From NCBI GenBank assembly GCA_020047915.1, contig JAIFND010000114.1, positions 1 to 46,003 on the forward strand: DNA of 46,003 nt, given 5' to 3'. Of this stretch, positions 1 to 33,052 are shown one piece after another. This DNA is from a bacterium. Lineage in GTDB: Bacteria > Planctomycetota > UBA11346. Both the position numbers and the translations under genes were made by a program. The notes below the pieces were generated by a model. The model was not told where the DNA came from. It worked only from the letters and a program-made list of their open reading frames with translations, and did not search any database. Positions within the stretch are counted from its first letter, which is position 1. Every line of letters starts with the position of its first letter.

Positions 1-622
1 CGTTGGCGAAGGGATCGGCATTCACGCCCAGCACGCCGAGGTCGGTGCCCAGGCAACGCCCCGCCCCCTCGATCTGATCCACCACCGCCCGGGCCAGACT
101 ATCACTGCTCAACAGCAGGCCGGTGCCGCTGGGCAGTCCCAGCAGCCAGCCTGCCGCGCTCGCGGCATCCTCGCTCCACACACCCTGCTCCGCCGCATGG
201 CCATGCTCGCGCAGCCGCCTGGTCAGCCCACGGCGGCGGTCATCCGCGCTGCTCCATCCCATCTCGCCCAGGAAGGCGAAGCGGGTATAGCCCTGCGCCA
301 GAAGGTGGTCGGCGGCGACCTGGCCGATGGCCTCGTCATCCGGAACCACCACGCAGGAGGCCTGCTTGGCATAGGTCCGGCTCCAGCCGACGGTCGGCAG
401 ACGGGAGGCGGCCACGGCTGCCGACACCTGGCGGTGATCGAAGGTCCCGCAGATGATCCCGGCGCAGCCGGCGAGGGCATCTGCACCCATGCGGTCGGGC
501 CAGTGCTCGTCGAGCTGCCAGCCCAGACCGGCATGGGCTACCTCGGCCACGCCGAGCAGCGCTTCGCGATGCACATGCCAGGTCGGGTGGATGATGACAG
601 CGACCCGGATCGGCTGGGCCAT
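1..622 (-). CDS. XylR/LacI-type periplasmic-binding-protein-like transcriptional regulator, partial (C-terminus beyond window edge)
   Basis: Read manually on minus strand from ATG at 622: MAQPIRVAVIIHPTWHVHREALLGVAEVAHAGLGWQLDEHWPDRMGADALAGCAGIICGTFDHRQVSAAVAASRLPTVGWSRTY...; open to the edge, so missing from the ORF track. XylR-like sensor fold; no N-terminal HTH, so a C-terminal AraC HTH is expected outside the window. Confidence 0.75.
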   Translation of the reverse strand, partial: MAQPIRVAVIIHPTWHVHREALLGVAEVAHAGLGWQLDEHWPDRMGADALAGCAGIICGTFDHRQVSAAVAASRLPTVGWSRTYAKQASCVVVPDDEAIGQVAADHLLAQGYTRFAFLGEMGWSSADDRRRGLTRRLREHGHAAEQGVWSEDAASAAGWLLGLPSGTGLLLSSDSLARAVVDQIEGAGRCLGTDLGVLGVNADPFAN

Positions 623-669
623 GCCCGGAGGGTATGGCCTCCGGGCTCGCCGGCCAGGGGTCGGACGCA

Positions 670-1422
670 TCAGTCGTTGGGATCGGTGGTCCAGAAGCCC
701 TTGGCCTGCATGACCCCGCCACCCGCCGTCCCCGTGCCCCACGACTCGGTCAGGCTGTGCGCTCCGACATGCCCATCGGCAAAGGCCCAGTTCCCCAGAT
801 TGCGATGTGGGACGGAAACGTCGGTCGTACCGAAGGTCAGAGCACCGGTGAGCCCACCGTATTGATTGCTCAGCGCGGTTCCATCGGCCCTGACGGTGCC
901 GTCGTGGCGTTCCAGCAGTAACGCCGTGGTCGAGGCGCTGCGGATGCGGGCCAGCGGCATGGCCGAGGTGTAGTTGGTAACTCCATTATAGCTGGCCAGA
1001 TAGATGAATACCGCTTTGCGCATGAAGGTTGGGTTTGAACTGGCGCAGGTTACGAGGCTGTAGGACCTCTTCCCGGTGTAGGTCACCCCATTCCAGGACT
1101 TGCTGTTGCTCTGGGCCGTCGTGTTGGTCGGGCACAAGAACACCTTGGTGGTATCGACATACTCCTGCAGCGATTCCTCCCAGTAGCATCCTTGGCTTCC
1201 GACCACCGCCCGCGGCTGCGGCAGCGTCCCGTCCCAGTCATTGGCATAGCCGAGCATCGCGGTCAGCACCTGGCGCATATTGTTGCCGCAGGAACGGGCC
1301 TGGGCCGCCCCACGCACCAGGTTGATGGCCGGCAGCAGCAACCCAGCGAGGATGGCGATGATCGCCACGACCACCAGCAGCTCGATCAGGGTGAAGGCCG
1401 AAGCCGGGTGGCTGGGATGCAT
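670..1422 (-). CDS. Prepilin-type N-terminal cleavage/methylation protein with H-X9-DG motif (pseudopilin-like)
   Basis: [41 protein letters not shown] (type IV pilin N-terminus) and C-terminal [12 protein letters not shown] (H-X9-DG). Start placed at the internal ATG at 1422. Confidence 0.9.
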
Positions 1423-1461
1423 GGCGGCGAGCATAGCTGGCCGCGGAGCCTGCGCACGACT

Positions 1462-1533
1462 CGGATGCGTCACCGTCCGGCATACATGCGCCATGGAGGC
1501 CGCCGTGACGCAACCCGGATGCCGCTTGACGCA
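1462..1533. promoter_or_regulatory. Divergent operator region: two oppositely oriented pairs of TGACGCA-like boxes, each with 21-bp spacing
   Basis: Plus: TGACGCA at 1506-1512 and 1527-1533. Minus: TGACGCA (1472-1466) and TGGCGCA (1493-1487). Lies between the divergent genes starting at 1422 (-) and 1582 (+). Confidence 0.6.
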
Positions 1534-1581
1534 TCCGGGGGATGGCCGGCTCCCGTGACAAGATATCCTGGTGTTTACCCC

Positions 1582-3857
1582 ATGAATCATTCCCCCTGCA
1601 CGCTCCGCGCCGGACCCGCCGGCATCACCCTCGCCAACGGCCGGCTCGCCTTCGGCCCCATCAGCGCCGGGGTCGTCGCCGATGGCCGCAGTCTGGTTTT
1701 CGGTGCCACGCCCACCGCCGGCACCTTCGCCACCGTGGTCGGCGAGCGCTCCGGCTGGCGCGCGGTCGGCCGCCTGGGCGGACTGGCCTGCACCTGGACC
1801 ATCGTGACGGACTGGCCTGGATCGAGGTCGCCAACGATTCCACCACCGCGGTGCAGATCGACCGCCTGCTGCCGGCGGTCCGCCGCGCCGAGGCCGACGC
1901 GGCCCCGGCGGTGGATCTGGGCGGCGAACAGACCGGGCACCGCATCCTGGTCGATACCGCCAACCTGTGGTTCGCCCGCGTGCGGCCGCTGCTCGATGTC
2001 GGCCACCGCCGCCGCCTCGAAGTCGAGGAGCAGGGTCTGTGGCGCCTCGCCGAGGCCGAGGACGAGCACCTCAGCGAAGGCCACATCGCGATCGCCAACC
2101 CCGCCACCGGCGGCGCGCTGGTGGCAGGCTCGCTGACCCATGAGCGCATGCGCATGCGCTTCTCGGTGCGCTTCAACCGCCAGCGCAGCACCGTGGTCGA
2201 GGCGGTGTGCGATGCCGGCGGCATGCGCCTGGCGCCGGGCGCCACGCTGCGCTCGGAGATCGCCTGGCTGCAACTGGGCACGGATGCGCTCGACGGCCTG
2301 GACGCCTTCGGCCGCGCCGTGGGCGGGCTGCGCGACCTGCCGCTGCCACCCACGCCGGTCGGCTGGATGACCTGGTTCGCGCACTGCCGCAAGATCGACC
2401 CCTCCACCATCCGCCACGCCGCCGAGACGGTGCGCGCCAGGCTGCCGGGCTTCCCCGTCACCCACATCCTGGTGGACGACGGCTGGGGCAACCGCGAGGA
2501 GCGCATCAGCGTCGAGGACTGGACCACCACCAACCAGCGCTTCCCCGAGGGGCTGGCCCCGCTGGGGGCCGACCTGGCGCGCCTCGGCTTCACCTTCGGC
2601 CTGTGGAGCAGCCTGGCCACCCAGTACCGCGGACATGCCATCGCGCAGCAGCATCCCGAGTGGCTGCTGCGCGACGCGGATGGCCGGCCCTCGCCGCAGC
2701 ATTGGGATGGTGGTCTGCTGGACATCTACAACCTCGACCCCACCCATCCCGCAGCCGCCGAGGAGATCCGCCGCGTGTACCGTGCTTTCGCCGCCTGGGG
2801 CGTGGGCTACACCAAGAACGACTTCACCGAGCACATGGTCCGGCCCACCGTCCAGCACCACGATCCGGCCGTGGTGCCAGGCTACGAGGTGTACCGCCGC
2901 TTCTTCCAGGTCGCCCGCCAGGGCCTCGGCCCGGGCATCGCCCTGCAGGCCTGCTGCCAGAACCTGCCGGCCTCGGTGGGCGTGGCGGAAAGCTGCCGCA
3001 TCGGCTGGGACATCGAGGCGAACTCGCCGTCGGGCAACCGCCACTACGCCCGCCGCGCCGGCACCATCGGTGCGCGCTGGTTCATGCACCGGCGCTTCTT
3101 CATCAGCGATCCCGACGCCGCCTGCCTCGGCGAGGCCGGTGGCCTGGAGTCCGCCCGCATGCGCGCCGCCGTGGTCGCCCTGAGCGGCGGCACGGTGATG
3201 CTCGATGATCCGGTGGACACCCTGTGGCAGCCGGGCTGGGATCTGTTCAAGCAACTCGTGCCGCCCAGCGACCAGGCCGCCCGTCCCCTCGACCTGTTCA
3301 CCGCCGGTGATGACACCGCCCCCGGCCGCTGGGGCCTGACGCTGGATCGCACCTGGGGCCGGCGCGGCGTGGTCGGCCTGTTCGCCTTCGCGCCTGCGAC
3401 CGGCGCACGCCAGACCCTGGACGTCCGCGAGGTGCTGCCCGGCTGCGATCCGGCGGCCGTGGTCGCGGTGGAACTGTGGAGCGGCGTCGTCCTGCCCCTG
3501 GTCGATGGACGCCACAGCGCCGACCTCGCCCCGCTGTCGAGTCGCATCGTCCATCTCGTCGAACTGGCTGACCGCCCGCGGCTGCTGGGCACCGATCTGC
3601 ACATCCTCGGCGGTTCCGTCGAGCTGCGCGACGAGGTCTGGCGCGCGGACACCCGCACCCTGACCCTGGTCCTCGAACGCCCGGCCGGCGTCACCGGCCA
3701 GGTGTGGATCGCCACCCCGTGCGGCCTGCCGGCCTCAGCCACGGCCGATGGGGCGCCCGTCGCCGTGCATCAGGCTGGCGCCCGGGTGCTGCGCCTGCCG
3801 GTGGCCTTCACCGGCAGCCGGATCGAGGTCCGCCTGGTGTGGTCGCACCCGGGCTGA
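1582..3857 (+). pseudogene. GH36-like alpha-galactosidase, apparent single-nucleotide frameshift near 1804-1807
   Basis: Starts [30 protein letters not shown]... in frame 1 and continues as [25 protein letters not shown]...ILVDDGWGNREERISVEDW...YTKNDF in frame 3. Adding one G at gtGac restores [11 protein letters not shown]. Confidence 0.8.
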
Positions 3858-5233: not shown

Positions 5234-7513
5234 TCAGGCGACGAACAGCCGCGTCGCTCCGGCCGGGATCTCCAGCGTCGGCAAGGCGGCGGCGAAATGG
5301 GGCGGCAGGGGCGTGGCGGCGGCCGGGACGGTCTCGACCAGCACGCGGACGCGGGCGGGGAACGATGTCGGATTGGCGACGCGCAGGGTGCGACGCGAGG
5401 CGTCGCTCCACTCGGCCCGCACATGGTCGAGGCAGCGGATCAGCCCGGTGTCGGGCTGCGCATAGATGCCGGGCAATTCGCACCAGGTGAGCATCATCGC
5501 CACCTCGCACCAGCAGGAGTAGGCGGCCTGCTCGCCGAGCGGCTCGGGCCACGACGGCGTGATGTTGACCCGTTCGCAGATCCAGCCCGGCGGCAGCGCG
5601 GGGAGCGGATGCCCCCAGGTGATGCGGGCCGGGATGGGCCGGTCGGCGCGCGAGACGAACTGCGGCAGCGCGTGGGCGATCTCGCGGATCAGGTCGAGCA
5701 GGCGCGCATCGCCGGAGGCGCGGAAGGTCTTGAGGATGCCGTCGCCCGACAGCGTGCAGATGCCGGGAACCCCGCATTTGTTCTGGGCGTTGGCGACCAT
5801 GGTGCCGCGTGCATCCATGCCGAGTCCGGCCAGCGCCGATCCGGGCGGGAACGCGACCGGGAACGAGATGACCCATGAGGCGGCCTGGTGGCAGGCCTGG
5901 ACGGCCGCCTCCAGCCAGCCGGGTTCGCCGGTCGCGTGGTGCAGGGCGATGAAGCTCTCGATCAGGCCGAAGATGGATTCGCCATCGGGCGCCTGCACGG
6001 CATCGCCCGGACCGCCGGTGGTCACGCCCCACGCGAGGTCGTGATCGCGGTACTGCGCGGCGGCGGTCCGCGCCACGGCGAGGAAGCGCGGCTCGGCGAA
6101 GTAGTCCGCGGCCTGCACCAGCGCGGCCGGGATCAACGCTCCAGAGGTGGTGCCGTGGATGGCGACGCGGGCGTGGTCGTAATCGATGAGGAAGCCGAAG
6201 GATCCCTCGCGCTCCCAGAGGTCGCAGAGGGCGTGGGCGCAGCGGCGTGCGGCCGCGTTCCACGCCGGCGGCGTCGTCTGACAGCGCTGCCGGCGGAGTT
6301 GGAGCTGACGGAGGACGAAGAACAAGGTGTCGCCTTGGCGGCGGGTCAGCACCTCAGGTATCCCTTCGCCGCTCATCCCGCAGCCGTCGCCCCTCCACAC
6401 GCCCTGCGACGACATGACGGCCTTGAACAACCCGCTGCCGGCGACCCCGTGCGTGAGCAGGAAATCCAGGTTCCGGGCCGCGCGAGCGGAGGAGAGCTCT
6501 CCACCGGCGTGATCGAAGGCGAACGCGGCGATGCCGCCGCCGCACCAGCCGTTCTGCCAGAACTGCGAGGACTGGTCGGAGTGCTGGTCGGCGAGCCAGG
6601 GCAGGCCGACCTGATAGAGCCCAGCGGCCTCATTCCAGTTCCCCGCGTTGTGCTTCTCCTCCAGCAGGCGCCAGGCCTCAGAGAAAGGCAGGACCTCCGG
6701 CAGCGGCAGGGCGGCTTCCGGGAACATCGCGGTGCGCCGGGCAAACAGCCGGGCGAACAGCGCTGGCACATCCGGGCAAGGGAACTCATGCCATTCGACC
6801 GCGAAGCCGAGCGCCTCACCGGCCTGGAGGGTCGCCGGACGTGGGTTCTCGGGATGGCGGTGGCCGGCGGTCTGGTTGCCGATGCTCCCCATCGGGTCGT
6901 CCTCCCCGACCGGATGCAGGAAACCCGGGCAGAGCAGGATCAGTTCGGCGGCGTCGCGCGCCTCGCTTTCGCACACCTCCAGGCCCACGGCGTGGCCGCC
7001 GGCGGTACGCGGCGTGAGCAGGAGCAGCGCCGAGGAGGTCGCGGCGCAGCGGACGCCGAGTGCAGGCGTGGCGGCGTCTAGCGAGGTCTGGTCGAGAAGC
7101 GAAGGACCGGGACGGTCGGACAGGCGGGGGATGTCGCCGATGTCGAGGCGCAGTTCGCCCGGCTTCTGGCCGAGGTCGCGGATTCTCGGCGGATAGGGAC
7201 GGCGCTGGGCATCGAAGCGGTTGCCGGCGTAGGCGGCGCCGGGGATGAGGACATAGTTCTCCGCCGACCAGGGCCGGCACGACCAGACCAGCCCGGCGGC
7301 GACCCGCTCGGCGCAGCCCGCCTCGACCGTGGCGGTGAAGCGGGCCGAGCGCACGCCGGGAGCGGTCTCGGCCACATCGAGGCGCAGCAGCCAGCGGGCC
7401 CCGGCGAAATCGGCGCGCAGCTCGCGCCCCGGCACGACCGCGAGATCGAGCGTCCGGATGCGGACGCGGCGGTCATCGTGGACGGCGAGGCGGAAGAGCA
7501 GGGTGGCGTTCAT
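5234..7513 (-). CDS. Uncharacterised protein, possibly (alpha/alpha)-barrel glycoside hydrolase-like
   Basis: Start ATG at 7513 (MNATLLFRLAVHDDRRVRIRTLDLAV) overlaps the stop of the upstream GH43-like gene (ATGA). Trp/His-rich helical central region; no family firmly recognised. Confidence 0.7.
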   Translation of the reverse strand: MNATLLFRLAVHDDRRVRIRTLDLAVVPGRELRADFAGARWLLRLDVAETAPGVRSARFTATVEAGCAERVAAGLVWSCRPWSAENYVLIPGAAYAGNRFDAQRRPYPPRIRDLGQKPGELRLDIGDIPRLSDRPGPSLLDQTSLDAATPALGVRCAATSSALLLLTPRTAGGHAVGLEVCESEARDAAELILLCPGFLHPVGEDDPMGSIGNQTAGHRHPENPRPATLQAGEALGFAVEWHEFPCPDVPALFARLFARRTAMFPEAALPLPEVLPFSEAWRLLEEKHNAGNWNEAAGLYQVGLPWLADQHSDQSSQFWQNGWCGGGIAAFAFDHAGGELSSARAARNLDFLLTHGVAGSGLFKAVMSSQGVWRGDGCGMSGEGIPEVLTRRQGDTLFFVLRQLQLRRQRCQTTPPAWNAAARRCAHALCDLWEREGSFGFLIDYDHARVAIHGTTSGALIPAALVQAADYFAEPRFLAVARTAAAQYRDHDLAWGVTTGGPGDAVQAPDGESIFGLIESFIALHHATGEPGWLEAAVQACHQAASWVISFPVAFPPGSALAGLGMDARGTMVANAQNKCGVPGICTLSGDGILKTFRASGDARLLDLIREIAHALPQFVSRADRPIPARITWGHPLPALPPGWICERVNITPSWPEPLGEQAAYSCWCEVAMMLTWCELPGIYAQPDTGLIRCLDHVRAEWSDASRRTLRVANPTSFPARVRVLVETVPAAATPLPPHFAAALPTLEIPAGATRLFVA

Positions 7514-8967
7514 GTTGATGGTCCGGTCTGTGCCTCGCGCCGCATCGCGGGGTGCGCGGTGGATATGCCGAAGACGGTCAACGAGACGAGCGCCGGGCGC
7601 AGGCCGGCTGGCCAGCCCAGGATGCGCAGGCGCAGACGCCTGGCGGTCGCGGGGGCGAACTCCACGTAGTCGATGAGCATGTCCTGCTGGCTGGCGCTGC
7701 GGTCGCAGAGCGGGGTCCACGGGCCGCCCTCCGCCAGCGCGGCCTCGAGGACATAGCGGACGGGACCGGGCAGGACGCCCCGGTCGTAATCGAGGCCCTC
7801 GTCGGTCCAGATGATGCGGGCGCAGGAGACGCTGAAATTCCGCTGCAGATTGATCTCCAGGCAGGGCTCCGGGTCACCCTCGGCGGGCTGCCACCATGTC
7901 CGCATCGAGTTGTCGAGGGCATAGAACGCATCGCGGCCCGGGGCCTCGGAGCTGGCGCGGCAGTTGCGGTTGATGGTGACGGGCAGCAGGCCGGCGTGGT
8001 TGCCTTTCCACGGCTCGGCGTTGGCGCCGGGCAGGAGGCCGGGCAGCTCGCTGGCGCCATGCGAGGCGAGATCGCCGTCCTGGTCGATCCAGACGGGATC
8101 CATGCCGATGCGCCGTTCGAACATGTGGTTCACGTTGACCAGGCAGGTGTAGAAGGCCCACAGCGAGCCGCCGGGGCCCTCGACCACGCAGCCGTGCCCA
8201 GGGGCATTGACGAGTCCATGGCGGGTGGCGAGGAACGGGTTCTTCCGTTGCGGCAGGAAGGGGCCGAGCGGCCCGTCGGACACGTAGGCCGCCATGCAGT
8301 AGGTGGTCCACTGGGTGCCCGGGCCGGCGTAGGTGAGGTAATAGACCCCGCCGCGCTTGAACATCCAGGCGCCCTCGTTGAAGTTCATGTCCCAGTCCTC
8401 ATTCCAATCGCCGGAACGCTCCCACGGGTGCGCCGGATCGTGGGAGAAGAGGATCTTCGGCTCGGTGATCAGCTGGGTCGGATCCTCCGGGTCCAACTCG
8501 GCACCGAAGATGCCGGGAGCGCTGATCCCCCAATACAGGTACAGCCGACCGTCCTCGTCCGGGAAGATCATCGGATCGAGCCAGCCCTCCAGCCTGCTGC
8601 CGTCAGGCTTGCGGAATCCGCCCAGCCGCTCGAAGGGCCCGAGCGGATGCGGGGCGCGCCACAGCGGAGAATTGCAGGCGGTCAGCAGGAAGGCGCCACG
8701 ATGCTTGGCGATCGTGGGAGCGTAGCCGGGGTTGCGCGGCTCGATCGGATGGTGCGTCCAGGTCGCGAAATCCGTGGAGACATAGGCGATGCCGCAGGAC
8801 GGGTAGAGGTACCACGCGCCATCATGGTAGAGCACGCTGGGGTCGGCGGTCTCACGGAAGTCGCGTCTGCCGGAACGCCGCCACCAGGAGGTGTCCTGCT
8901 CCTTGCCGTAGGTGCTCATCCCGCGTGGGTAGTCCGGAAGCGGCAGGGGATTGCAGTAGGTCTTCAT
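7510..8967 (-). CDS. Family 43-like glycoside hydrolase (five-bladed propeller) with C-terminal discoidin-like domain
   Basis: MKTYCNPLPLPDYPRGMSTYGKEQDTSWWRRSGRRDFRETADPSVLYHDGAWYLYPSCG...GWLDPMIFPDEDGRLYLYWG...; C-terminal NCRASSEAPGRDAFYALDNSMRTWWQP resembles F5/8-type domains. Confidence 0.8.
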   Translation of the reverse strand: MKTYCNPLPLPDYPRGMSTYGKEQDTSWWRRSGRRDFRETADPSVLYHDGAWYLYPSCGIAYVSTDFATWTHHPIEPRNPGYAPTIAKHRGAFLLTACNSPLWRAPHPLGPFERLGGFRKPDGSRLEGWLDPMIFPDEDGRLYLYWGISAPGIFGAELDPEDPTQLITEPKILFSHDPAHPWERSGDWNEDWDMNFNEGAWMFKRGGVYYLTYAGPGTQWTTYCMAAYVSDGPLGPFLPQRKNPFLATRHGLVNAPGHGCVVEGPGGSLWAFYTCLVNVNHMFERRIGMDPVWIDQDGDLASHGASELPGLLPGANAEPWKGNHAGLLPVTINRNCRASSEAPGRDAFYALDNSMRTWWQPAEGDPEPCLEINLQRNFSVSCARIIWTDEGLDYDRGVLPGPVRYVLEAALAEGGPWTPLCDRSASQQDMLIDYVEFAPATARRLRLRILGWPAGLRPALVSLTVFGISTAHPAMRREAQTGPST

Positions 8968-11264
8968 GGGGTCCTGGTCACGGTGACGAGCACCATGCAA
9001 TGCTCGCCGACGGCGACCGGCACGCGCAGGATGCCGTCGTGCGCGGCGAGGGCGAAGTCGCAGCTCGGGATGGCGTCGAGCGCGGCGACCTCCTCGGCGG
9101 TGAAGTCGATCAGATAGCGCTCGCCGGCCCCGCGCGTGATCGGCAGGGTCTGGCATGCGGGGGCGCCGAGGATGGCCTGCACCGCCGCATCCTCCGGATC
9201 GGAGGTCTGCACGGTCACGCGCACCGGGCGATCGCGATAGGCGGCGGGCAGGTCGCGCAGGACCAGTTCGGCGCGGGGATAGCGCAGCGGCAGCGCATCC
9301 TGCATGAAGATGGTGGGCGACGCGGTCCACAGCAGCGCGCGCACGCTCGTCTCGTCCATCGTCACGAAACCGTGCAGGCCGTAGCCGGTCTGCGGATCCT
9401 GGGGCGACACGGTGGCGTCGAGGCACCGGTCGGCCAGGCGGCTGCGCAGCCACATGCCCTTGGCGTAGGGCGAGAGGGCGCTCTGTCGGCCATAGGTGAG
9501 GCAGCCGAAATGCCAGCCGCCGCCGGAGATCGGCACGAAGCGGCCGGGCTCGCGCAGGTATGCATGGTGCAGGGCCGCCGTGAAGCAGGCCATGGCGGCC
9601 TCCTTGCGCGCGGCACCGTCGAGACCGGACAGGTCTTCAATGGTGGACGGCTCGGCCAAGCCGACCTCATCGACGATGACGGGCAGGTCAGTGGGCAGGC
9701 GGTGCTTCTCCAGCAGGGTCCGCAGGCGCGCACCGAAGCCGCGGGCTATGGCGGGCGTCGATCCGGGGAAGAGGTAGGTGTGCCAGGTGAGGTAGTCGAG
9801 CCGCTTGCGCGGATCGGGGTCGGCGGCATAGCGGCCGAGGAATCCGTCGATGAAATCCCAACGCTGCTCCGGCGTGTTGATGCCGAGGCCGGCGACCGCG
9901 AGCTGGCGCTCGGGCGGCAGGTCCGCGTTGAGCTCATGCACGGCCTCATAGAGCGTGCGGAACAGGCGGTAGTGGGCGTCGCGATGGCATGCGGCGTCCG
10001 AGAAGTTGTCGAACTCGTAGTGCATCTGGATGATGCGCAGGCGCGGGCAGACGCGCAGCGCGGCGCGGATGGCCGTGAGATAGCCGAGGCGCAGGTGTTC
10101 CCAGGTGTGCCCGGGCACGCCCTCCGGGGGCAGGGGCACGGTGCCGCGCCTGGTGGACTGGAGGTAGGCGGCGAGGAACGCGTCGAGGTAGAAGGCGAGC
10201 ATCACCTGCTCGGCCGAAGCCTCGGCCGCCAGCAGCCATTGCTCGAGCATGCCCCAGCCCTGCGGTTCGAGTTCGCGCGGATCATCCGCCTTCACCACGG
10301 GCGTCCATTGCTGGTAGCGGAAAAGGGAGAACCGGCGTCCCAGCGCGGCCGTCAGGGCCTCGGCCATGCGCACGCACTGGCGGTTCGGCTGCCCGCTCAC
10401 GACATCCTTCGCCGGATTGCCGGTGTAGGCCTGCACCCGCAGCTCGCCCCGGTCCCACGCGCGGGAATCGGCTGCGAGGGAGACCTCCACCCGGCCGTCC
10501 GCGCCGAGCAGACGGCGGGATAGCCCCTGCGCCTGGTCGCGCCATGCGTCGAGACGCCGCCGCACGTCAGTGCGTGCGGCGGCAAGGGCGGCCTCATCGA
10601 GCCCCGAGCGCGACGACTCCTCGCGCGGCACGACGGCGCTGAGATCGCTCCACAGCGACCCCACCAGCAGGCTGGCCTCGCGATCCATGTGGCCGGTCCG
10701 CGCATGGAACTCGAAGGCCATGCGGCCGCCGGCGCAGAGCAGCGACGGATAGACGCGAAGGTGGAGGATGCCGGTGAAGCCGAGGCCGGGCGCGTCCGCA
10801 GGGGCCTGGTCGACCCGCAGCAGGTGGAAAACGGCCGTGAAGCGGCCGCTGGAGCAGCGGAGCTCCCGGCGCGGGTCCAGCTCGAGGACGACGATCTCCT
10901 CGCCCTGGCCCGCCACCTTGAGCGCGACCGCGAGGCGTTCCGCTGTGCCGAGCCCGACATGCAGAGGTATGGCGAAGGTCACCGCGCTGGCGGCCCGCTC
11001 CAGCGGCACGATCTCGCTCAGGCAACGCACGGCGCGCCCGTTGGGCGTGCCGCCGCGGAACAGGAGGTTGGCGCCATGGGCCTGGTTCCCATGCCAGTCC
11101 GTGTAGGCGCCGGACCAGTAGGACCCGGGATGCCAGCCCTGGACGCCGCGCTGGCCGTCCTCGACCACGACGGGGTCGGTGGCATCCATGCCGATGCCGT
11201 TCACGCGCCAGCGGAATTCAACCTTGGCGTCGCCGCGTAGCGGCCTCATCCCGGAGGTGTGCAT
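8964..11264 (-). CDS. Putative clan GH-A glycoside hydrolase (GH39-like barrel)
   Basis: YLTWHTYLFPGSTPAIARGFGARLRTLLEKHRLPTDLPVIVDEVGLAEPS (possible nucleophile Glu); N-terminal beta-sandwich-like region. ATGA overlap with the downstream GH43-like gene. Confidence 0.6.
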   Translation of the reverse strand: MHTSGMRPLRGDAKVEFRWRVNGIGMDATDPVVVEDGQRGVQGWHPGSYWSGAYTDWHGNQAHGANLLFRGGTPNGRAVRCLSEIVPLERAASAVTFAIPLHVGLGTAERLAVALKVAGQGEEIVVLELDPRRELRCSSGRFTAVFHLLRVDQAPADAPGLGFTGILHLRVYPSLLCAGGRMAFEFHARTGHMDREASLLVGSLWSDLSAVVPREESSRSGLDEAALAAARTDVRRRLDAWRDQAQGLSRRLLGADGRVEVSLAADSRAWDRGELRVQAYTGNPAKDVVSGQPNRQCVRMAEALTAALGRRFSLFRYQQWTPVVKADDPRELEPQGWGMLEQWLLAAEASAEQVMLAFYLDAFLAAYLQSTRRGTVPLPPEGVPGHTWEHLRLGYLTAIRAALRVCPRLRIIQMHYEFDNFSDAACHRDAHYRLFRTLYEAVHELNADLPPERQLAVAGLGINTPEQRWDFIDGFLGRYAADPDPRKRLDYLTWHTYLFPGSTPAIARGFGARLRTLLEKHRLPTDLPVIVDEVGLAEPSTIEDLSGLDGAARKEAAMACFTAALHHAYLREPGRFVPISGGGWHFGCLTYGRQSALSPYAKGMWLRSRLADRCLDATVSPQDPQTGYGLHGFVTMDETSVRALLWTASPTIFMQDALPLRYPRAELVLRDLPAAYRDRPVRVTVQTSDPEDAAVQAILGAPACQTLPITRGAGERYLIDFTAEEVAALDAIPSCDFALAAHDGILRVPVAVGEHCMVLVTVTRTP

Positions 11265-11329: not shown

Positions 11330-11358
11330 ATGCGGCACCGTTGAACCAGGATGCGGCA
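11330..11358. promoter_or_regulatory. Direct repeat ATGCGGCA-N13-ATGCGGCA (21-bp spacing), candidate AraC-family site
   Basis: atgcggca at 11330-11337 and 11351-11358; 66 bp upstream of the start of the four-gene minus-strand operon (11264). Confidence 0.45.
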
Positions 11359-23189: not shown

Positions 23190-24206
23190 TCAGCGTGCCT
23201 GGGCCGCCGCAACGTACTCCACTGTCCGCCCGGCGGCGGCCATGCCGCGGCGCACGATGGCGATGTCGAGGGCTGCGTCGGCCACGCTCACCAGACGCCG
23301 CGGCAGCGGCTTGCCGTCCAGTACCGTGTCGGAGAACTCATCATACTGGGTGCGGGCGAAAGCCGGCACCGGGATGATCTTCTTCTCGCCCTTGCGCGAA
23401 GCGTGGATGCCGCCCTCGCCCAGGGTCAGGCGCCAGCCCTGGTCGGTGACCAGGAAGAACTGGTCGATGTGCTCGCGCTCGTTGCCCGCGGTGCTCCACA
23501 CCTGCAGGTCGGCGGCCCAGGTGATGAAGAGGTGGGCCGAACCGCCGCCAACGAAGTCGAGCTTGAGAAATTCGGTGTCCTTGCAGGCCAGCTCGGGGTG
23601 GCTGTGGGTGTCGGCGAACAACGTGCCGCGTACCGCCACGCGACCCATCAGGTAGCGCGCCGCATTGAGGTTATGGACCATCGCATCCAGGAAGGGGCCG
23701 CCGTTGGCCTGCGGATCGGTGGCCCAGCTGTTCCACTGCGGATAGTGGTGGATCCAGTCCTGCTTGTAGAGCGCCAGCCTGCCGAGCGTGCCGCCATCGA
23801 AGAGGTCCTTCAGCGCCTCGACCGCGGCGTTGCCGCTGCGCGAGTAGATCACGCCGAAGGGGATCTGGGCGGTGGCCTTGGCGATCGCGGCGCATTCGGC
23901 CTCGTCGCTGGCCAGAGGCTTGGTCGCGATGATCGCCTTGCCGGCGGCTGCGGCCTGCTCGACCAGCCCACGTCGCACCTGCGGCGGCACGAAGAGGGCG
24001 ACGGCGTTGATCGTGGGGTCGGCGAAGGCCTCCTCGGGCGTGGCCAGGACGCGGCCGCCCAGTTCCTTCGCCCACTTCTCAGCGCGGACGCGGTCGGGGT
24101 CGTAGAGGGCGGCGACGGTGGTGCGCTTCGAGGCCTTGAGGTCGCCGGCCTGCCAGCGCAGGAAGTCGCCGCAGCCGAAGATCGCGAGGTTGAGGTTGGT
24201 GCTCAT
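23190..24206 (-). CDS. Gfo/Idh/MocA family oxidoreductase
   Basis: MSTNLNLAIFGCGDFLRWQAGDLKASKRTTVAALYDPDRVRAEKWAKELGGRVLATPEEAFADPTINAVALFVPPQVRRGLVEQAAAAGKAIIATKPLASD. Confidence 0.92.
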   Translation of the reverse strand: MSTNLNLAIFGCGDFLRWQAGDLKASKRTTVAALYDPDRVRAEKWAKELGGRVLATPEEAFADPTINAVALFVPPQVRRGLVEQAAAAGKAIIATKPLASDEAECAAIAKATAQIPFGVIYSRSGNAAVEALKDLFDGGTLGRLALYKQDWIHHYPQWNSWATDPQANGGPFLDAMVHNLNAARYLMGRVAVRGTLFADTHSHPELACKDTEFLKLDFVGGGSAHLFITWAADLQVWSTAGNEREHIDQFFLVTDQGWRLTLGEGGIHASRKGEKKIIPVPAFARTQYDEFSDTVLDGKPLPRRLVSVADAALDIAIVRRGMAAAGRTVEYVAAAQAR

Positions 24207-27074: not shown

Positions 27075-28508
27075 ATGGCCAGCATGACCCTCACCGATCC
27101 AGCCCCCGCCGCCTGCACCTTCGCCCTCTTCCTCGGCAATCGCGGCTTCTTCCCCTCCTCGTGCATCGCCGCCGCGCGCACCGAGCTGGTCGCCGCCCTG
27201 GCCGCCGGCGGCCATCGCGCCCTGATCGCACCCGAGGACGGCATGCGCCATGGCGCGGTCGAGACCGCCGCCGAGGGCCGGGCGTGGGCGCGCTGGTTCG
27301 CCGCGCACCGCCACGAGGTCGACGGCGTGATCCTGTGCCTGCCCAACTTCGGCGATGAGAACGGCGCAGTCGCGGCGATGCAGGACGCCGGCGTGCCGAT
27401 CCTGGTCCACGCCTATCCCGACGAGCTGACGCAGATGGCCCCGGCCACGCGCCGCGACGCCTTCTGCGGCAAGATGAGCGTGATGGACGTCTTCCGCCAG
27501 GTCGGCATCCGCTTCACCGCCCTGAAGCCGCATGTGGTGCATCCGGCCAGCGCCGCCTTCCAGGCCAACCTCGCGCACTTCGCCGCCGTCTGCCGGGTGG
27601 TGAAGGGCCTGCGCCGCTGCACCATCGGGGCGATCGGCGCACGGACCACCGCCTTCAAGACCGTCCGCGTGGACGAGGTGGCCCTGCAGTCGGTCGGCGT
27701 GACGGTCGAGGCGACCGACCTCGCCGATGTCATGGCCCGCGTCCGCGCCCTGGCCGACCAGGACGGCGATGTCCTGGCCAAGGCGGAACGCCTGCGCGGC
27801 TACACCGACTTCACCCAGGTCCCGGGCAGACCCTTCCTCGCCCTGTGCAAGCTGGGCGTGGCCCTGGACCAGATCTCCCAGGAGCTGGGCTGCGATGCCA
27901 TCGCCCTGCGCTGCTGGATCGAACTGCAGAAGGAGCTGGGCATCTCGCCCTGCGTCCTGCTCTCCGAACTCAACGATCGCGGCCTGCCCGCGGCCTGCGA
28001 GGTCGATGTCGGCAACGCCGTGGTCATGCGCGCGCTCAAGGCCGCGACCGGCGGGCAGACCACCCTGCTCGACTGGAACAACAACTACGGCGACGATCCC
28101 GACCGGGTGATCCTGTTCCACTGCGGCCCTGTGCCGCAGGGCCTGATGCTGGGCCGCGGCACGGTGACCGACCATGTGCTGCTGCAGCCGGTGCTGGGCG
28201 AGGGCTGCAGCTACGGCTGCAACACCGGACGGATCCGGCCTTTCGACTTCACCTACGGCGGCCTGGTCACCGATCGCGGCCGGGTCGAGGTCTATCTGGG
28301 CGAGGGTGCCTTCACCGCCGATCCGGTGCCGGCCGACTTCTTCGGCTGCGCCGGGGTGGCGCGCATCCCCGATCTGCAGGAGGTCCTGCTGACCATCGCC
28401 CGCCAAGGGCACCGCCACCATGTCGCCCTCGCCCCGGGCCGTGCGCGCGACGCCATGGTCGAGGCGATGGGCGGCTACCTCGGCTACAGCGTGACGAGGT
28501 TCGCATGA
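27075..28508 (+). CDS. L-fucose/L-arabinose isomerase family protein
   Basis: ALFLGNRGFFPSSCI...; CEVDVGNAVVMRALKAATGGQTTLLDWNNNYGDDPDRVILFHCGPVP and C-terminal GCSYGCNTGRIRPFDFTYGG typical of this ketol-isomerase superfamily. Confidence 0.9.
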   Translation: MASMTLTDPAPAACTFALFLGNRGFFPSSCIAAARTELVAALAAGGHRALIAPEDGMRHGAVETAAEGRAWARWFAAHRHEVDGVILCLPNFGDENGAVAAMQDAGVPILVHAYPDELTQMAPATRRDAFCGKMSVMDVFRQVGIRFTALKPHVVHPASAAFQANLAHFAAVCRVVKGLRRCTIGAIGARTTAFKTVRVDEVALQSVGVTVEATDLADVMARVRALADQDGDVLAKAERLRGYTDFTQVPGRPFLALCKLGVALDQISQELGCDAIALRCWIELQKELGISPCVLLSELNDRGLPAACEVDVGNAVVMRALKAATGGQTTLLDWNNNYGDDPDRVILFHCGPVPQGLMLGRGTVTDHVLLQPVLGEGCSYGCNTGRIRPFDFTYGGLVTDRGRVEVYLGEGAFTADPVPADFFGCAGVARIPDLQEVLLTIARQGHRHHVALAPGRARDAMVEAMGGYLGYSVTRFA

Positions 28509-31009: not shown

Positions 31010-33052
31010 ATGCCCGCCACCATCACCGAACAACAACTGCTGATCGACGGCCACGTCATCCTCGAGCAGCTGCCGCCCGAAGTGACCGTGGTGGCCGACC
31101 CGACCGCGACCGGCGTCTTCCTGCGCGTGCATCCGTGGACCGCGCGCGACCGCCTGGGTCCGGCCGGCGAGAGCGCCGTGCCGGCGACCGGCAGCCGCAT
31201 GGACTGGCGCCTGGGCCGACCGGTGGCGATGGCGCGCTGGCTGGCCTGCGCGCGCACCTCGCCGTTCTGGATGGAGCCGCGCGTCGGCGTGGCGTGTGGT
31301 GCCATCCCGCGCGAGACTCAGAGCCTGCTGTTCCAGCGCAGCGACGGCCGCCATGTGCTGGTCATCCCGCTGCTCGACGATCCGCTGCGCTTCTCCCTGC
31401 ACGGCACCGCCGCAGGCCTGGCGCTGGTGGGCGAAAGCAACGACGCGTTCACCCCGGGCAGCGCCGGCATCGGCGCCTTCGTCGCGATCGGCGACGACCC
31501 CTACGTCCTGCATGAGCGCGCTGCGGCGGCGGTGGCCAGGCACCTCCCCGGCTGCCGCCTGCGCCGCGACAAGCCGCTGCCCGACTTCATCGACTGGTTC
31601 GGCTGGTGCACCTGGGACGCCTTCTACCAGGAGGTCGATCCGGCCGGGGTCCGCGCCGGCCTCGACAGCCTGCGCGCGGCCGGCGTGCCGCCGCGTCTGC
31701 TCATCATCGACGATGGCTGGCTGAGCTCAGCGCGCATGCCTGGCGGCGGGCATCAGTTGACCGCCTTCGCGCCGAACGGGAAGTTTGCCGGCACCTTCGC
31801 ACCGGTGACGCGTATGGCCAAGGAGGAGTTCGGCGTGCGCTGCGTGCTCGCCTGGCATGCCCTGCTCGGCTCGTGGGGTGGCACCTCGCCGCGCCACCTG
31901 GCCGGACATGGGATGCACGAAGTGGCCAAATGCTACGGCGCCGAGGTGCTCGGCCACAGCGGCCAGGCCAACCATACCTGGGGCGCGGCGATCGGCCTGC
32001 CGTCGGCCGCCGGGGCTGCGTCCTACTACGACACCTGGCACCGCCTGCTCGCCGGCCAGGGCATCGACGGCGTGAAGGTCGATGTGCAGGGCCTGCTCGA
32101 GTCCTGCGCCACCGGCACCGGCGGCCGGGTCGGCCTGATCGCTACCTTCCGCGCCGCCCTCGAAGCCTCGGTGGCCCGCCATTTCCACGGCCGGCTGCTC
32201 AACTGCATGAGCCATGGCAGCGAGACCTGGTACCTCTCGCCGGGCTCGAACCTGACCCGCTTCTCCGGCGACTTCTATCCCGAGAACCCCGAGACCCACG
32301 GCCCGCACCTGTGGACCAACGCCGCCCTCGGCCTGTGGTTTGGCGAGTTTCAGCACGCCGACTGGGACATGTTCCATTCCCAGCACCCGCAGGCTGCCCT
32401 GCATGCGGCGGCGCGCGCCATCTCCGGCGGTCCGGTCTATGTCTCGGACAAGCCGGGACGCCACGACCCGGCCGTGCTGCGCCGTCTGGTGCTCAGCGAC
32501 GGCAGCGTGGCTCGGTGCACCGCGCCGGCCCGCCTCGGACCCGCGTCGCTCTATGCCGATCCACTGGCCGAGGCGGTCCCGCTAACGGTGTGGAACAGCA
32601 ACCCCTGCAACGCCGTGCTCGGCGTGTTCCATGTCCGCCGCACTGGCACCCCCCTGCGCACCTCGGTCACCCAGGACGATGTGCCCGGCTGCCAGGGCGA
32701 GCACATCCTGTACCACGACGGCCGTCTGGTGCGCGACGCTGCCCTCGATCTCCACCTCGAGCCCCTTGGTCACGCGATCGTCACCGTCGCTCCGGTCCGC
32801 GCCGGCCTGGCCCTGATCGGCCTGCAGCACCTCTTCAATCCCGGTGCCGCCATCACCGCCTGCCGCGATGATGGCGCGACCGCCGACGTCAGCCTGCGCG
32901 ACGGCGGCGAATTGCTGGTCTGGTGCACCCGTCGCCCGAGCAGCGTGGACGGCGCCGACGGTCCGCTCGCGCACGCCTGGCATGCCGACTCGGGACTGCT
33001 GTCCATCACATTGCCAAGCGGTGCGCCAACCGCCTGCCGCATCCGCCGCTGA
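31010..33052 (+). CDS. Sip1/raffinose-synthase-related alpha-galactosidase (GH36-like)
   Basis: DWFGWCTWDAFYQEVDPAGVRAGLDSLRAAGVPPRLLIIDDGWLSS...GIDGVKVDVQGLLE...FSGDFYPENPETHGPHLWTNAALGLWFGEFQHADWDMF. Confidence 0.9.
   Translation: MPATITEQQLLIDGHVILEQLPPEVTVVADPTATGVFLRVHPWTARDRLGPAGESAVPATGSRMDWRLGRPVAMARWLACARTSPFWMEPRVGVACGAIPRETQSLLFQRSDGRHVLVIPLLDDPLRFSLHGTAAGLALVGESNDAFTPGSAGIGAFVAIGDDPYVLHERAAAAVARHLPGCRLRRDKPLPDFIDWFGWCTWDAFYQEVDPAGVRAGLDSLRAAGVPPRLLIIDDGWLSSARMPGGGHQLTAFAPNGKFAGTFAPVTRMAKEEFGVRCVLAWHALLGSWGGTSPRHLAGHGMHEVAKCYGAEVLGHSGQANHTWGAAIGLPSAAGAASYYDTWHRLLAGQGIDGVKVDVQGLLESCATGTGGRVGLIATFRAALEASVARHFHGRLLNCMSHGSETWYLSPGSNLTRFSGDFYPENPETHGPHLWTNAALGLWFGEFQHADWDMFHSQHPQAALHAAARAISGGPVYVSDKPGRHDPAVLRRLVLSDGSVARCTAPARLGPASLYADPLAEAVPLTVWNSNPCNAVLGVFHVRRTGTPLRTSVTQDDVPGCQGEHILYHDGRLVRDAALDLHLEPLGHAIVTVAPVRAGLALIGLQHLFNPGAAITACRDDGATADVSLRDGGELLVWCTRRPSSVDGADGPLAHAWHADSGLLSITLPSGAPTACRIRR

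Follow-up and report, generated by a model that had tools for sequence, protein, structure and literature searches.

Two opposed pairs of boxes of the form TGNCGCA lie in the intergenic gap between a pilin-like gene and an alpha-galactosidase-like gene of an uncultured planctomycete, and pairs of the same kind recur at other promoters of the surrounding gene cluster. The boxes are most likely the binding sites of a sugar-sensing regulator, because the pairs recur at six promoters around the gene for such a protein. Judging from the sequence, it is probable that this XylR-like protein controls a local glycan regulon by class-II activation through the 21-bp-spaced boxes. The arrangement adds a further case to a familiar kind of bacterial gene control. 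The whole stretch of 46,003 nucleotides that was analysed is called the window below.

Direct reading of the window places the plus-strand boxes at 1506-1518 (TGACGCAACCCGG) and 1527-1539 (TGACGCATCCGGG), at a spacing of 21, and the ATG of the alpha-galactosidase gene (1582) lies 48 bases past the second of them. The minus-strand boxes, TGGCGCA (1493-1487) and TGACGCA (1472-1466), are also spaced 21, and the ATG of the pilin gene (1422) lies 43 bases past them. Reading combined with a pattern search gives the pair TGACGCAA/TGACGCAT (1506-1534, plus strand, spacing 21) for the promoter of the GH36-like alpha-galactosidase gene and the pair TGGCGCAT/TGACGCAT (1465-1493, minus strand, spacing 21) for the promoter of the pilin-xylR transcript; the intergenic gap of 159 bp holds both. 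All four boxes, with their positions and spacing, match those of an earlier sequence-only reading. That reading did not notice that a TATNCT hexamer stands exactly 37 bases downstream of the start of the second box on both strands: the -10-like TATCCT at 1564-1569 (plus) and TATGCT at 1430-1435 (minus), the latter 7 bases before the ATG. Its argument that opposed pairs of matching geometry are unlikely to be random is strengthened by this equal hexamer distance, and also by the restriction of the unmismatched pair TGRCGCA-N14-TGRCGCA to this one gap within the window. The equal box-to-hexamer distance on the two strands is likewise consistent with the proposed co-activation of the pilin and galactosidase genes, which the sequence appears to support.

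The plus-strand sequence can be read in another way, as a functional palindromic operator or RNA hairpin (CCCGGATGC-N8-GCATCCGGG, 1514-1539), for example one serving a LacI-type repressor or acting as a terminator, with the direct repeats secondary. The hairpin does fold at -18.5 kcal/mol (z -2.5), but no T run follows it, the HTH of the regulator is of the AraC type and not the LacI type, and the hairpin or palindrome occurs in one of six sites. The other five sites go most of the way to refuting this alternative, which is very improbable in our estimation: the element is missing from all of them, and none has a perfect inverted repeat over 6 bp.

The information is carried by the box pair and its position, and the single box is uninformative: TGACGCA alone shows no enrichment across the window, with 7 occurrences against 7.8 expected. 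Genome-wide counts were obtained by pattern search of the 3.97-Mb assembly. The unmismatched pair TGRCGCA-N14-TGRCGCA is found four times, as the two pairs described above, C20:50095 (which sits within long open frames) and C24:27455, the last on a contig that adjoins the window (see below). A weight matrix derived from the four pairs known up to that point, two each in the window and C24, revealed two more when applied to the joined 79 kb, at window position 11358 on the minus strand (score 19.2) and at C24:31561 (16.1), against scores of at most 14.3 in reversed controls. The C24:31561 pair is a sixth, weaker site, also inside the cluster. Good half-sites in the joined 79-kb contig pair only at spacing 21, with five pairs there and none at other spacings from 9 to 60, and all six sites have direct-repeat half-sites at 21 bp. 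The six-way alignment is invariant at T11, G12, C14, G15, C16 and A17 of the first box, at a G six bases further on, and at G33, C35, G36, C37 and A38 of the second box; these positions are consistent with a reader that has two HTHs.

Genome-wide, the refined pattern TGVCGCAW-N13-TGVCGCAW is matched exactly at five places, all in one 20.6-kb cluster that runs from C24:23949 to window 11358 and surrounds the regulator gene. This clustering is partly circular, because the pattern was refined once the sites had been seen; the unrefined box of the sequence-only reading is free of that bias. We also considered chance matches in a GC-rich genome. The expected frequency of the single box would fit that view, and when up to two mismatches are allowed, pairs are indeed common (266+254, compared with 145+127 for the control). 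Chance is nevertheless an extremely remote explanation and is already refuted by the clustering of the exact refined pairs and by the fixed hexamer distance: when the hexamer is added to the pairs, the genome yields 7 matches and the control 0.

In five of the six sites, the start of the second box is followed 37 or 38 bases downstream by a YANNNT hexamer (binomial tail 3e-8, uncorrected for the roughly 70 offsets), the site at 11358 being the one without a good -10. The start codon lies 49-73 bases downstream of the second box in all six. Of the seven genome matches to the promoter pattern, five belong to the cluster and the others are C20:31285 and C209:10429; these two are candidate sites only, and regulon membership is not claimed for them. 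The E. coli xylA-xylF region showed no clear matching geometry, and therefore pBAD of strain MG1655 was taken as the control. In that promoter I1 and I2 are 21 bp apart and the -10 TACTGT is 37 bases downstream of the start of I2, so that the geometry of the cluster promoters equals that of E. coli pBAD. The comparison with araBAD covers I1/I2 and the -10; the shared features are the 21-bp direct repeat and the distance of the -10 from the second half-site, whereas the box sequences differ (TAGC at araBAD, TGNCGCA here). A second half-site at the -35 position with a near-fixed distance to the -10, as found here, is expected of a class-II operator of the AraC family.

The genes behind the six sites include GH36-like, GH43, GH39-like, BNR and beta-helix genes, with the regulator gene in mid-cluster, and every neighbouring transcript between C24:23949 and window 11358 can be assigned to one of the sites. 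The pilin/pseudopilin-like protein (670-1422, minus strand) has a prepilin N-terminus (N_methyl 9.1e-7, weak DUF1559), and its transcript continues from 1422 into xylR. On the opposite strand, the alpha-galactosidase-like gene (1582-3857, Melibiase 1.8e-11) has a frame break near 1800 in the assembly. The shift falls within 1790-1815, the frame of the ATG at 1582 differing from that of 1812-3857, and it is either an assembly error or a real break. The box pair TGCCGCAT/TGCCGCAT (11330-11358, minus strand, spacing 21), found with the weight matrix and the refined pattern, precedes a four-gene operon (11264-3874) on the same strand. Its first gene (8964-11264) belongs to no Pfam family and has the Shine-Dalgarno sequence AGGAG ahead of its ATG; it is followed by a GH43 glycosidase gene (7510-8967), a gene for a protein without assigned family (5234-7513) and, last, one for an FAD-dependent oxidoreductase (PF12831, 3874-5214). 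In C24, the site at 23949 precedes a beta-helix/DUF2341 protein (C24:24019), that at 27455 a GH39-like protein and then a BNR protein (C24:27526), and that at 31561 a protein of no recognised family (C24:31643). Further glycan-enzyme genes in the cluster thus also have the boxes ahead of them. Their description as a pair between two genes holds for the first two promoters and understates the system, which involves at least six.

The sequence-only reading had named the product of the XylR-like gene as the natural candidate regulator, with an AraC-type HTH at its end as the point to check. Only the 5' part of the gene lies in the window (1-622, minus strand), and the remainder continues in C24 to 32660. 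The C24/C48 join rests on a 91-bp exact overlap, the last 91 bp of C24 being the first 91 bp of the window, and it is supported by the sensor-domain score, which climbs to 82 bits in the joined protein from 48 bits when the window part is scored by itself. The joined gene is an unbroken reading frame of 371 aa with a Peripla_BP_3 domain (9.1e-23, residues 104-259) and, at the C-terminus, an AraC-type double HTH (HTH_18, 4.7e-16, residues 289-366). Its best PDB relative is E. coli XylR (4fe4, residues 10-381 aligned, E 5e-19), and no NCBIfam model scored above cut-off. The similarity to E. coli XylR (4fe4, 4fe7) is full-length, from the LacI/GalR-type sugar-binding domain to the AraC-type double HTH, but the relationship is distant and the targets here are glycan enzymes and a pilin rather than xylose catabolism. 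AraC itself has a cupin-type arabinose-binding domain. Immediately ahead of the xylR start codon is a strong hairpin, GCCCGGAGG-6-CCTCCGGGC (window 623-646, minus strand), which overlaps a TACCCT hexamer ending 6 bases before the ATG; this element is possibly a separate leaderless promoter or attenuator.

The candidacy of the XylR-like protein is supported by these domains, and the identity of the binder is inferred, since a second AraC protein is encoded at the cluster edge. The main rival is this protein, AraC_B (C24:23018-23887), which would bind the same operators and serve the same regulon, leaving the XylR-like protein with a role elsewhere or with none. An HTH_18 domain is present in AraC_B, and about 60 bases separate the end of its gene from the C24:23949 site, which places the gene directly upstream of the leftmost site and the beta-helix gene; elsewhere in the genome (C72, C209) AraC genes also stand directly upstream of a promoter of the same geometry. 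Against this, AraC_B is at the edge, whereas the XylR-like gene is central and in a transcript carrying a box pair. The HTHs of the two proteins are only about 30% identical, so sequence does not decide between them; we regard AraC_B as an unlikely binder, though a far more serious contender than the hairpin or chance.

Relatives provide no phylogenetic footprint, because 22 genomes of the order lack the needed orthologs: identity reaches no more than 34% for the best XylR homologs and 31% for those of the galactosidase, and neither set includes an ortholog. The promoter pattern is absent from these 22 genomes, and a collection scan for XylR orthologs found none. The rpoB scan found one record 76% identical and all others at or below 50%, identities that indicate a deep uncultured lineage. 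The nearest record (CAMCMZ010000009.1, L149) is labelled 'Candidatus Kuenenia stuttgartiensis', a label that is probably wrong.

No rule is claimed beyond the cluster, because spacing 21 was not in excess among 47 other AraC-locus stretches of this genome searched with a -10 and start codon required (1 case, compared with a mean of 0.33). A looser run had hinted at a general AraC-locus rule, which was dropped after this stricter search, and a search of AraC/XylR loci for 21-bp direct repeats without further constraints was discarded as swamped by codon periodicity. At L129 (C209:10429) and L059 (C72), the promoter that comes directly after an AraC gene combines 21-bp repeats with a TANNNT hexamer 37-38 bases further on, and the start is near-leaderless. 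Leaderless transcripts look common in this genome: of 167 genes in the stretches covered, 16 have a TANNNT that stops exactly 6 bases short of the first start codon, where about 0.8 would be expected at any one position. The peak is absent from a 67-gene sample from family relatives. At L104 ~1330-1400 (C179), near an AraC/XylR-like gene, the 7-bp unit CGAACGC is repeated in tandem.

In Bacteroides, polysaccharide genes are controlled by AraC-type hybrid two-component regulators whose direct repeats are on average 21 bp apart (PMC3878776). Those systems share AraC-type DNA binding, 21-bp repeats and local glycan-enzyme regulons with the one proposed here. In the Bacteroides hybrids a membrane sensor is joined to a response regulator, whereas the protein here is without such parts and has a LacI-like sensor.

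We propose that an AraC-family transcription activator recognises the boxes as its half-sites, and that the sensor domain of the XylR-like protein would be filled by a sugar freed from the target glycan. A dimer of the protein would then occupy two TGNCGCA half-sites that face the same side of the DNA at a distance of two helical turns, and from the second half-site, at about the -35 position, RNA polymerase would be recruited to the -10 hexamer 37-38 bases downstream. The control would be activation rather than repression, of class II like that of pBAD. From the intergenic gap, two pairs would drive the pilin and alpha-galactosidase genes in opposite directions, and the four further pairs the remaining transcripts, forming a local regulon for one polysaccharide. 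The regulator gene, within the pilin transcript, would be inside its own regulon.

More tentatively, the pilin-like protein may be a working part of glycan use and for that reason wired into a substrate-specific XylR regulon, although we hold this to be rather doubtful. Its promoter mirrors that of the galactosidase, and its role could be surface capture or an export pseudopilus for glycosidases. Proximity to AraC genes is not a genome-wide habit of pilin genes, about 3 of 19 lying within ~2 kb of an AraC HTH, roughly the chance level. If the proposal is true, the pilin-like genes of this genome (~19) would include substrate-specific parts of glycan loci. The cluster offers a concrete cis-regulatory code for an uncultured and poorly known lineage, with its regulon genes, probable reader and expected transcription starts, and by tying a pilin-like protein to a glycan-degradation response it makes the function of that pilin testable.
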